From Candidatus Peribacteria bacterium (GTDB taxonomy: Bacteria > Patescibacteriota > Gracilibacteria > Peribacterales > Peribacteraceae), in contig VGKY01000010.1 of NCBI GenBank assembly GCA_016866875.1, positions 1 through 32,902 on the forward strand: DNA of 32,902 bases, given 5' to 3'. Below the pieces are notes generated by a model. The model made no database searches and was not told where the DNA came from. It was given only the letters and a program-made list of their open reading frames with translations. Shown one piece after another: positions 2,498-5,560 of the stretch. Both the position numbers and the translations under genes were made by a program. Numbering within the stretch: position 1 is the first letter of the stretch; every line of letters begins with the position of its first letter.

Positions 2498-3769
2498 TTA
2501 TGAAGAAGGAAAGAGAGAAGAAAGTGAATCAATTGTAATCTGTGCATCTTGATTCGTTTCCATGTTCGTTATCTTAAGAAGACCGGAATCCAGCTCGTTA
2601 TCTCCGATCACAACAAAATGGGAAAATCCCTCATCTTTAAAATAGGAAGCTGCCTTACGGATTCCTTTTGAGCTGGTATCTTCTAAGACAGGAATTCCTT
2701 TTCCACGCAGTTCAGCAATCATTTTCTCGGCTTCGCCTTGGCGTTTCGTCATAACGTAAACGCCCACAGAAGTCTTTGGCTGCCTCAGCTTATCGTCGTG
2801 CTCGAGCAGATCATCATGCCGGATGATTCCACTATAGACACTACGGATGCGTGGACTGAACTTGCTGCCATACTCGTGATAACTCCCGCCGTCTGCGGTG
2901 CGCTTGTCCTCCCCTTCGAGATACAACTGATATCCAAGAGCGCTGAAAAATTCTGAAGAATGAAAATCATTGAGATCAAATGTACACGACTCAACGCCGG
3001 GCAATTCTGCCAGCTTCGCGATTCTGTCGTAGTACGTTTCCAAATTCGCAGCTATAGCAGGTAAATGAGTTCGAATTTGGGTAAACTGATCGTTAAACTC
3101 TTTGGGACCTTCATCATGCAAAGACGAAAGAGAGTCAAAAAGCTCCGGTTTTTGACGAATACGATCCAGTACGGAAGCCAGTTTCTCATCAGTTGGTTTT
3201 TCTTTTCCATGGTGGAAGCGCCGATAGAAAAAATAATTTCGCGCATCTTCCTGCGAAAAACCGTGTTGTTCAAAAAGGGAAATCCAAAGACGGAATTCGT
3301 TCAGGACAATTTGAACTTTTTTCGATGTGACCTGCCTCAAAGTTTCAATCAGAATACTAGGTATAACCGTCTCATTCTTTTCTGAGATTGAATCATTAAC
3401 AAAACTCACTCCAAGATGATGATAGTGCCTTAACTTCACATTTCTGTAGCGAAAAACCGGTATAGAAAACATAAAACGAGCGAGCTTCTCTCTGTTGCTC
3501 GCGACGTATGATCTCATCACAACTGGTAGGCTGTCGCAGTTCAAAACGAGAGTACGATCCGATTTGTCTTTAAGTTGGTATGTTTTTTCCGGATCTAAAT
3601 TCGTATCGGCAAAATATGTCTCTTCAAATCCCGCAGGAGCAACTCGTAGTTCCTTGGCCCCGTATAACCTTGCCTGATCATACAAAATTCTCTGGGCATC
3701 CGACAGACGCTCGGCTTCGCTGCCTACGCGGTCGACGAATCCCTTTGGTGTATCGAACTTGCGGTCCAT
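2498..3769 (-). CDS. Histidyl-tRNA synthetase-like protein with degenerate catalytic motifs
   Basis: Class II aminoacyl-tRNA synthetase fold, 423 aa, about the HisRS length. Domains: catalytic-type core at about 1-325 (opening FDTPKGFVDRVGSEAERL) and a C-terminal HGTP anticodon-binding domain at about 330-420 (SVGVYVMTKRQGEAEKMIAEL). Motif 2 is recognisable (PVFRYRNVKLRHYHHLGVSF), but the usual FRxE Glu is replaced by Arg. The histidine signature LVRGLDYY is replaced by CTFDLNDFHSSEFF. The usual motif 3 (GVGxSIGxxRL) is replaced by SVYSGIIRHDDLL. It may be a divergent HisRS, a HisRS paralogue with another job, or HisZ-like, though HisZ lacks the C-terminal domain. Its ATG overlaps the stop of the upstream HisRS fragment by 1 nt (TAATG), indicating one operon. 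Confidence 0.7.
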   Translation of the reverse strand: MDRKFDTPKGFVDRVGSEAERLSDAQRILYDQARLYGAKELRVAPAGFEETYFADTNLDPEKTYQLKDKSDRTLVLNCDSLPVVMRSYVASNREKLARFMFSIPVFRYRNVKLRHYHHLGVSFVNDSISEKNETVIPSILIETLRQVTSKKVQIVLNEFRLWISLFEQHGFSQEDARNYFFYRRFHHGKEKPTDEKLASVLDRIRQKPELFDSLSSLHDEGPKEFNDQFTQIRTHLPAIAANLETYYDRIAKLAELPGVESCTFDLNDFHSSEFFSALGYQLYLEGEDKRTADGGSYHEYGSKFSPRIRSVYSGIIRHDDLLEHDDKLRQPKTSVGVYVMTKRQGEAEKMIAELRGKGIPVLEDTSSKGIRKAASYFKDEGFSHFVVIGDNELDSGLLKITNMETNQDAQITIDSLSSLFPSS

Positions 3770-4113
3770 TATGAAATAGCGGAATGAAGATCGTCCAACG
3801 AGACTTGCTTTTGATCGCGTGTTTCAAGATTTTTTAATTCAAGATTGCCGTCTTCGCCTAGAAAAAGGACGTAACGAATACCTTTGCGTGTCGCGTATTG
3901 GATCTGCTTTCCGATCTTGCTGTCAAAATTAAAATACTCTTCACATGGTACAGCTTTTTCTCGTAACGAGTTTGCGATTTCATGGCAACGGTGGCGCTGC
4001 ATCTCCGAAAAAGCGGAGATCAAAACTTTTGATGTTGTCGCGGGTCCGGTTTTAATTGCATCCGCCTGTTTCAAAAGTGCATAGAGTCTTGATATGCCGA
4101 TGGACATACCCAC
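3769..4113 (-). CDS. HisRS C-terminal fragment: motif 3 plus anticodon-binding domain
   Basis: 114 aa that match only the end of histidyl-tRNA synthetase. It opens with class II motif 3 (GVGMSIGISRLY, canonical form) and continues through a normal HGTP anticodon-binding domain (KVLISAFSEMQRHR, then SKIGKQIQYATRKGIRYVLFLGEDG, given here as two blocks of a longer motif). The similarity reaches two codons upstream of the GTG start (PGVG). A TAG at 4165-4167 then closes the frame, and I see no catalytic core further up. The simplest reading is a hisS that lost its 5' two thirds by deletion. The reading frame and tight TAATG coupling to the next gene are intact, so a free-standing motif-3/anticodon-binding subunit working with the neighbour is possible. 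Confidence 0.6.
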   Translation of the reverse strand: MGMSIGISRLYALLKQADAIKTGPATTSKVLISAFSEMQRHRCHEIANSLREKAVPCEEYFNFDSKIGKQIQYATRKGIRYVLFLGEDGNLELKNLETRDQKQVSLDDLHSAIS

Positions 4114-4217
4114 ACCCGGTCTGAATAGAAGTGCGCGCTTTTGCTTGCTACACAGCAGAGCGGTCTATGGAATCCCTTCTTCCGCAGGCCACCGTGTTGA
4201 TGGGATGATGTGAATAA

Positions 4218-4251
4218 ACAAAAACACTCTCCTGTTATTGCAGGAGAGTGT
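4218..4251 (-). terminator. Intrinsic terminator of the attenuator leader
   Basis: On the minus strand an 11-bp perfect stem (ACACTCTCCTG / CAGGAGAGTGT, plus-strand 4224-4234 and 4241-4251) with a 6-nt loop is followed by TTTTGTTTATT. It sits about 100 nt upstream of the HisRS fragment and downstream of a promoter and short ORF. It can also end transcription of the GNAT gene. Confidence 0.8.
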
Positions 4252-4316
4252 CGGATTTCTTCGTAATCTATTTACCGGACACGACGCTCCTGCGGGGCAA
4301 GAAGCCCGCGAAGGAG
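4240..4316 (-). promoter_or_regulatory. Putative transcription attenuator (three competing hairpins)
   Basis: Read on the minus strand. Hairpin 1 pairs CTCCT-GCGGG-type arms: plus-strand 4287-4296 with 4305-4316, the latter carrying a 2-nt bulge. The 3' arm of hairpin 1, GCAGGAG followed by CGTC and GTGTC (plus-strand 4278-4293), is complementary to GACACTCTCCTGC (plus-strand 4240-4252), which includes the 5' arm of the terminator. It gives 7 + 5 bp around a small internal loop. The layout is therefore anti-antiterminator, antiterminator, terminator, as in amino-acid operon attenuators. The pairings are read directly; function is inferred. Confidence 0.55.
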
Positions 4317-4346
4317 GAGGCCAGAGGGAAACAGACAGTTGGTCAT
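4272..4346 (-). CDS. Putative 24-aa Leu-rich attenuator leader peptide
   Basis: ATG at 4346, TAA at 4274-4272, 24 codons. Six residues are Leu; codons 10-12 are CTC CTC CTT and codons 15-16 are CTT CTT, inside the peptide segment SGLLLRGLLAPQERR. Codons 10-12 lie on the 5' arm of hairpin 1, so a ribosome stalled there would free the antiterminator. A ribosome reaching the stop would cover the antiterminator and permit termination. The arrangement recalls E. coli LeuL, whose leader also carries a run of Leu codons. The ATG is about 6 nt after the predicted transcription start. Confidence 0.45.
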   Translation of the reverse strand: MTNCLFPSGLLLRGLLAPQERRVR

Positions 4347-4358
4347 TACTTTATGAGT

Positions 4359-4386
4359 ATTCTAGATTGTCAGATTTTCTTGTCAA
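4359..4386 (-). promoter_or_regulatory. Sigma70-type promoter of the attenuator leader / HisRS operon
   Basis: A consensus -35 TTGACA (plus-strand 4381-4386) is followed by a 16-nt spacer and -10 TAGAAT (4359-4364) on the minus strand. The predicted start is near 4352. It is the strongest-looking promoter in the window and lies in the 40-nt gap after the GNAT gene. Confidence 0.65.
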
Positions 4387-4425: not shown

Positions 4426-4914
4426 TCAAAGCTTCTTCAGCATTTCAGTATAACGATCTGTGTAGCTGCACTTCTCGTAGAACACATGCGTCCCGGTATT
4501 GGGAGCGAAGCATCCAACACGGATGTATTCGCAATTCTTCTCACGGAAATACGTCTCCATCTTCTCCATAAGCGCACGTCCGGCACCTTGCCCTCGATGC
4601 TTCTGAGAAACGACTAGTTCAATGATGTTTCCTTCCTTGGCAGGATAGTGATCGAGCGCGTCATCGGGATCTTCATTCGGAATGGTTCCTGCAATGAAGC
4701 CCAAAAGTTTGTCCTGTTCTTCGGCTACAAATATTTCCCCCTTGTCATGCCTGACTTTCTCAAGAAGATGATCGATGTACTTCGCGCCATCGAAATCTTC
4801 GATGTTCCGGATTCTCTTCAATGGATCCATGGCAGAGAGATGTTCCTGCAATTCCGCCATCAGTTGCAAGAGTGCCGATTGATCAGTGGAATGGTGGGGG
4901 CGAATGTCGATCAT
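4426..4914 (-). CDS. GNAT-family N-acetyltransferase
   Basis: Protein of 162 aa from ATG 4914, with a single GNAT acetyl-CoA-dependent acyltransferase domain. The acetyl-CoA-binding motif A is clear: ELVVSQKHRGQGAGRALMEK (R/QxxGxG/A). It is followed by motif B around FYEKCSYTDRYTEML. The acceptor substrate cannot be predicted. ATG 4914 is preferred because GNAT proteins usually begin M-x-IRP. An in-frame ATG at 4947 has a GGGAG three nt before it but would overlap the HAD gene by 29 nt. It lies 4 nt after the HAD stop, so the two probably share an operon. Confidence 0.85.
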   Translation of the reverse strand: MIDIRPHHSTDQSALLQLMAELQEHLSAMDPLKRIRNIEDFDGAKYIDHLLEKVRHDKGEIFVAEEQDKLLGFIAGTIPNEDPDDALDHYPAKEGNIIELVVSQKHRGQGAGRALMEKMETYFREKNCEYIRVGCFAPNTGTHVFYEKCSYTDRYTEMLKKL

Positions 4915-4918
4915 AGAT

Positions 4919-5560
4919 TCAATGTTCCAAGGATACACCTGCGACATCTACTCCCATATGCCGGAGCGCCACACTTAGTGCAGCAACATCGTTCTTTTGA
5001 TCATCATGCCAATACGTCTTCATCCCCATCTGTGCAGGTACTTCCAGATTCTTCTCTTGATTGTCGATGAAGATCGCCTCCTCCGCTTTGTATCCAGCTC
5101 TGCTGAGAGCCGCATCGAAAATTGTTGTCGTTCCATCGCGCTTCGATGCATGCTCTGTCGCGGAAATGACAATGGGATCAAATAGCTTTTCGAGTTGCAT
5201 ATCGGCGGTCAGAAGATCCATCCGTTCGCGATTGTTATCGGTGATAATGCCGAGGCGATAGCGAGAGAAGAGGGATCGCGCTAGATCGAACATGGCATTA
5301 TTCTTGGGTACCTTGCTCATCATCTTCCTGAGAAGATCGTCGTTTGCGGGAATCTTGAAAGCAGCGCACATTCTCTTCCATACGTCGCTCATGGAAATCT
5401 GCCCCATGTTGAGTGCTTCAATATCTTCCCGGTAACTATCGAGGACTTCTTGAACGGATAACCCAGGCACCAACTCGCAAAGATTTTTACTCATGGTGAG
5501 GGAGCCTTTCGCGTCGGTTGTCAGAACGCCATCGAGGTCGAAGAAAATTGCTTTGATCAT
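4919..5560 (-). CDS. HAD-superfamily hydrolase
   Basis: 213 aa. HAD motif I is FFDLDGVLT at residues 6-14 (nucleophile Asp8, acid Asp10). Motif II is the Thr in LGIITDNNRE at about residue 106. Motif III is a Lys near ASKRDG, and motif IV is AIFIDNQEKNL. A helical cap lies between motifs I and II (subfamily I type). Likely a cytosolic phosphatase of the phosphoglycolate-phosphatase/YihX type; substrate unknown. First gene of a pair with the GNAT gene. A TACAAT -10 box lies 9 nt upstream of the ATG, so the mRNA may be leaderless or nearly so. Confidence 0.85.
   Translation of the reverse strand: MIKAIFFDLDGVLTTDAKGSLTMSKNLCELVPGLSVQEVLDSYREDIEALNMGQISMSDVWKRMCAAFKIPANDDLLRKMMSKVPKNNAMFDLARSLFSRYRLGIITDNNRERMDLLTADMQLEKLFDPIVISATEHASKRDGTTTIFDAALSRAGYKAEEAIFIDNQEKNLEVPAQMGMKTYWHDDQKNDVAALSVALRHMGVDVAGVSLEH

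Follow-up and report, generated by a model that had tools for sequence, protein, structure and literature searches.

Amino-acid operons of Escherichia coli (i.e. trp, his, leu and pheST) are controlled by leader-peptide attenuators, and leader peptides on leaderless transcripts occur in Corynebacterium and other Actinobacteria. The theory of amino-acid operon leader-peptide attenuation has been set out (PMC1183508). In Bacillus subtilis, the bmrB-bmrCD attenuator combines alternative stem-loops with translation of a small leader ORF and responds to slowing of translation by antibiotics, not to a single amino acid (PMC4191407). A candidate attenuator was analysed in a 32,902-nt stretch of DNA (the window; contig VGKY01000010.1) from a Candidatus Peribacteria genome (G000). 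Its features, in the order of transcription, are as follows.

4359..4386, minus strand: promoter TTGACA-16-TAGAAT, with 11/12 consensus matches and the best sigma-70-like match within 12 kb
4272..4346, minus strand: leader ORF of 24 codons, MTNCLFPSGLLLRGLLAPQERRVR followed by the stop, without a Shine-Dalgarno; the ORF and stop position are kept in 27 homologues
4285..4317, minus strand: hairpin 1 (protector, segments 1:2), from the minimum free energy fold; backed only in aggregate in homologues
4274..4294, minus strand: segment 2, CGCAGGAGCGTCGTGTCCGGT, i.e. the final leader codons and the antiterminator 5' half
4240..4252, minus strand: segment 3, GACACTCTCCTGC, i.e. the antiterminator 3' half and the terminator 5' arm
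4223..4252, minus strand: intrinsic terminator hairpin of 12 pairs, then TTTTTGTTT
4205..4227, minus strand: U-tract and single-stranded motif, consensus TTTTTTTTGTTCnTTCACATCA, conserved in the alignment
4151..4199, minus strand: hairpin 3 (post-terminator), CAnCAnGGYGGnCTGnGGA...TCCnnAGnCCGCCCTGnTG, identified by covariation and a covariance-model (R2) match
4138..4150, minus strand: TAGCAAGCAAAAG, putative rearrangement junction and last exact match to homologue G070, with HisRS coding sequence directly after
3769..4113, minus strand: ORF1, a 5'-truncated HisRS C-terminal piece (motif 3 and anticodon-binding domain; PF03129; TIGR00442 positions 299-405/406)
2498..3769, minus strand: ORF2, a full-length HisRS/HisZ-like paralogue whose start codon overlaps the ORF1 stop

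Like the E. coli amino-acid attenuators, this locus has a short ORF, a putative 1:2 protector, a 2:3 antiterminator and a 3:4 terminator, with the stop codon so placed that a terminating ribosome would block the antiterminator. The Peribacteria family to which it belongs differs from them in having no common control amino acid, a probably near-leaderless start, a small-protein target, an extra post-terminator hairpin and no Rfam match. With bmrB-bmrCD it shares a leader ORF (putatively translated here), alternative stem-loops and an output other than amino-acid biosynthesis, whereas the sequence and lineage differ and the bmrB-bmrCD target is an ABC transporter; we know of no post-terminator hairpin in that system. 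The actinobacterial leaderless leaders are similar in starting at or near the leader start codon, as predicted here, and in lacking a Shine-Dalgarno, but are unrelated in sequence, and a 5' end of roughly 3–7 nt is predicted for the Peribacteria transcript.

From promoter to terminator, the switch spans window positions 4386–4223 of the minus strand. The TTGACA-16-TAGAAT promoter and 24-codon ORF reported in a preliminary description were found at 4386–4359 and 4346–4272, respectively, placing the predicted transcription start only ~6 nt 5' of the leader ATG. The 143-nt leader folded at −50.2 kcal/mol as compared to −31.7 ± 3.7 for shuffled sequences (z = −5.0). All three competing RNA elements described earlier were present, i.e. 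hairpin 1, the alternative pairing of GCAGGAG..GTGTC with GACACTCTCCTGC, and the terminator at 4252–4223. As claimed, Leu codons 10–12 (4319–4311) extend onto the hairpin 1 5' arm. Once this arm is covered, the antiterminator (GCAGGAG....GTGTC.CGG with CCGACACTCTCCTGC) forms at −18.3 kcal/mol; compared with shuffled upstream sequence, the window antiterminator gave −20.4 vs −10.6 ± 2.4 (p = 0.007).

Homologues were found by a DNA search with the leader alone and then with two covariance models, R1 (from five homologues) and R2 (built on the 3' part of 20 copies). Of the 74 genomes in this family (Ca. Peribacteria/Peregrinibacteria), ~25 contain homologous leaders, indicating that the fold is not due to chance. 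R2 matched 25 of the 74, including the window at 4151–4227, and, among 380 genomes from across the phylum, matched nothing outside the family. Only some copies are strong, and R1 matches below ~26 bits include unrelated attenuators; weak R1 matches (20–38 bits) without hairpin 3 were classed as other attenuators and not as family members. Rfam gave no leader-region match at the gathering threshold or at E values up to 1, the only match in the window being a tRNA, and the literature searched contained no paper joining Patescibacteria/CPR with leader-peptide attenuation. Judged by Rfam and by the literature that could be searched, this attenuator family has not been described before.

The leader ORF was in frame in 27–28 homologues, with a length of 21–34 codons. 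With leader starts picked by hand and promoter position taken into account, 18 of 28 leaders had TTGAC or GTGAC 36–40 nt 5' of their start codon (1.7% expected by chance for each), and only 2/28 had a Shine-Dalgarno-like core. Promoter boxes were less clear in six genomes (G072, G073, G074, G075, G016 and G043). The fixed spacing and the rarity of the Shine-Dalgarno core suggest that translation of the leader probably begins at a nearly leaderless 5' end.

The terminator was located automatically in 27 leaders and the pairing of its 5' arm with the upstream leader was compared to dinucleotide shuffles. The antiterminator surpassed the shuffles at p < 0.05 in 20/27 leaders and at p < 0.01 in 12/27 (mean z −3.1), while four to five leaders (G048, G050, G051, G054 and possibly G075) had weak antiterminators by this automatic method. 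In a cross test, 10 of the 27 terminator arms had their own leader as best partner, and 17 ranked it among the top three. Compensatory changes were observed in five antiterminator pairs among the closest five leaders, vs 0–1 after sliding the partner. The protector pairing (1:2) reached p < 0.05 singly in 8/27 leaders, with a combined p of 2.7e-6. Thus, comparison across relatives bore out the antiterminator, including the compensatory changes among its nearest relatives, but backed the protector hairpin only in aggregate. In 27/27 leaders, the 3' end of segment 2 lay 0–12 nt 5' of the last nucleotide of the leader stop, extending the stop placement of the preliminary description to every leader compared, and a ribosome terminating at this position would cover segment 2. 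The recurrence of the ORF, stop position, antiterminator and terminator in 27 divergent leaders supports the leader-peptide attenuator logic proposed earlier.

The switch proved longer than first noted, with homology running past the terminator to 4138 and including a second conserved hairpin. No part of the switch is more strongly conserved than this hairpin 3; across 20 loci it comprises 15 pairs with 93.6% of cells paired and compensatory changes in eight pairs, and its covariation was 0.370 as compared to 0.180 for shuffled alignments and ≤0.128 when slid. An insertion of ~130–200 nt was observed in its loop at L047 (G074) and L112 (G073), partly duplicated in G073.

All but the window among the 20 aligned loci with leader and hairpin 3 precede a gene for a small protein of ~80–150 aa, unannotated and fast-evolving with a near-invariant Trp, and this gene nearly always has a Shine-Dalgarno. 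A profile of the small protein gave convincing matches in 24 family genomes, every one with the leader upstream; loci of G001, G002, G067 and G073 were absent from the training set, yet also had the leader upstream. Comparisons with Pfam, PDB sequences and PDB folds yielded nothing credible for the small protein, for which an AlphaFold2 model had a mean pLDDT of 82. An AbrB/MazE-like fold, the first idea from its sequence, obtained no support. The family alignment was too divergent to serve as a query against viral contigs, and one subfamily used as query gave no match there. The profile search found no small protein in G000.

The window is an exception in which the leader, U-tract motif and hairpin 3 are all intact, while the gene downstream is ORF1. 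This ORF lacks HisRS profile positions 1–298 (i.e. the first three quarters), and its first start codons have no Shine-Dalgarno. The genome's stronger HisRS match sits elsewhere (G000:C4:40816). The HisRS-like protein as query found no confirmed relative in 84,980 GTDB genomes; in 40 relatives it gave four matches, either weak or to itself, and two phage records matched at 19–22% identity. Two further genes, a 91-aa ORF without a Pfam match and a cupin gene, are located 3' of ORF2. A GNAT acetyltransferase gene beside the leader (4426–4947) resembles one beside the G066 small-protein gene (L008:4650–5138), and its differing orientation in the two genomes indicates that the locus has been rearranged. 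As the switch elsewhere precedes the small-protein gene, the link to HisRS is probably a local rearrangement and not the usual target; truncation or fusion would account for it, an assembly error being less likely. The HisRS fragment operon named as target in the preliminary description thus appears to be a local accident, which also explains the oddity noted there of a HisRS-like instead of a Leu gene downstream.

A junction created by assembly of a chimera, hiding the true downstream gene, is improbable: the host genome is available as a fragmented 36-contig draft and the junction coincides exactly with the end of leader homology, but the overlap of ORF1 with ORF2 marks them as one operon, and the GNAT gene adjacent to the leader is likewise adjacent to the G066 locus. 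This GNAT gene, which ends at 4426 on the same strand, could itself own the terminator, with the remaining complementarity due to chance. Such an explanation is barely credible, as it is contradicted by the covariation, and homologues keep the promoter, ORF and antiterminator behind other upstream genes (G066, for instance, has a HIT-family-like gene there). A stand-alone small RNA, transcribed from its own promoter to its own terminator and to which the downstream gene would be irrelevant, would match the ~130 nt enclosed by these elements and the few loci at which the downstream gene differs (G048b, G054, G005 and the window). The tight tie to one protein family and the conserved sequence and hairpin past the terminator make it very improbable.

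The nature of the input was assessed from the leader peptides. These have 21–34 residues and vary widely (e.g. MKSLFVIIAAHKIAVRIPVGRVRC and MILSYVTRRSVVIIRQKMIGRLRA), with a core pN/pS of 0.80 among the closest five leaders and of ~1 in other pairs. A peptide-conserved arrest peptide was considered as the role of the leader, and the pN/pS argues against it. Such low conservation could mean that the ORF is tolerated instead of used. Frame 0 contains 30% Leu/Ile/Val vs 14–17% in the other two frames, and 1.7% Pro vs 9–11%, so the leader ORF looks coding. Control of the terminator by a protein or ligand bound to the leader RNA (or to hairpin 3), with the ORF incidental, would suit the high conservation of hairpin 3 and the free leader residues; this is also improbable, marginally less so than the chimera, given the stop position over segment 2 in 27/27 leaders, the conserved start-promoter spacing and the coding-like composition of frame 0.

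The signal claimed earlier was Leu-tRNA, a shortage of which would stall the ribosome at Leu 10–12 and 15–16 as in leu operons. Six of the 24 window leader residues are Leu, LLL..LL is present at nearly the same codons in G011 and G070, and the cores of G000 and G011 differ by six synonymous and two nonsynonymous changes, the only synonymous excess observed. In a relative, a genuine Leu7 leader also precedes the gene for 2-isopropylmalate synthase. Against this, the run is broken in two other close leaders (LHLRGLS and FLRRKLR), Leu accounts for 12.4% of leader residues overall (1–7 per leader) and is not enriched family-wide, the core pN/pS is as given above, and neither downstream gene type, i.e. 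the uncharacterised small protein or the HisRS fragment, is a Leu gene. Furthermore, the Leu codons may be a by-product of pairing, as CTCCTC is also the RNA strand opposite GGAG. A Leu-specific attenuator is therefore unlikely, and a Leu signal would at most be local to the G000/G011/G070 group. A His attenuator finds no His codons in the leader ORF and no intact HisRS target. Amino acids that differ between genomes, or general ribosome progress, fit better than Leu. In the sequences compared, the ORF is retained together with its length and stop, but no amino acid has a conserved run of control codons. Because the leader residues are not conserved, the input is most likely general ribosome progress (i.e. 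translation stress or the charging of several tRNAs) and not one amino acid; the general ribosome slowing mentioned as an alternative in the preliminary description thus fits the family better.

Other attenuators of the same class carry codon runs matching their genes, unlike this family. At L030:890–1050 in G021, a leader with Leu7 (MQRMSTQLGLLLLLLLMAEERLRA, then stop) and a terminator lie directly 5' of a 2-isopropylmalate synthase gene, ~130 nt 3' of a small-protein gene with its own leader; this is a classical Leu attenuator. At L038:1480–1616 in G162, a leader with a Phe6 run (MQTIQKQFFFSFFFRKFEGLFLV, then stop) and a terminator precede a PheS-like/SrmL gene. On the minus strand of L043 (~1503–1640) in G184, a proline--tRNA ligase gene, which reads TGA as Gly, comes after a short leader containing two Pro codons and after a terminator. 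Also noted, at L051:2700–2840 in G089, was a leader containing Ser/Cys (MNGAYVLHCSPVSSCFWSREGLGC, then stop) with a terminator, 5' of a phosphoglycerate-dehydrogenase-like gene.

We consider the locus, with a probability of about 0.72, to represent a Peribacterales-specific family of ribosome-gated transcription attenuators, with ribosome progress as input, a small protein as output and a HisRS fusion in this genome. The sequences themselves show the anatomy, the homology, the pairing statistics and the co-occurrence with the small protein, whereas the transcription start, ribosome control (deduced from the anatomy), its signal and any control of the HisRS genes are inferred. Transcription would begin ~6 nt 5' of the leader ATG and the leader would be read without a Shine-Dalgarno. 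A ribosome reaching the stop codon would mask segment 2, allowing the terminator (3:4) to form and transcription to end, whereas a ribosome delayed in the first half of the leader would block segment 1 and free segment 2 for the antiterminator (2:3). RNA polymerase would then read on, producing a downstream transcript that carries hairpin 3. If the leader is untranslated, hairpin 1:2 should favour termination. The usual output would be the small lineage-specific protein; in the window genome, the small gene would have been lost and the switch fused to the 5'-truncated HisRS and its HisRS-like paralogue.

More tentatively, and at somewhat less than even odds, these elements may form a lineage-specific Peribacteria module in which a near-leaderless leader ORF of free sequence and fixed length and stop gauges general ribosome progress and switches on the fast-evolving small protein, and the conserved hairpin on the small-protein mRNA adds a second layer of control. 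For ultra-small uncultured bacteria (Patescibacteria/CPR), in which gene regulation is almost unknown, an attenuator family supported by covariation and coupled to a target protein family provides a testable RNA switch, and would mark an unannotated small protein as one made by these cells when translation falters.
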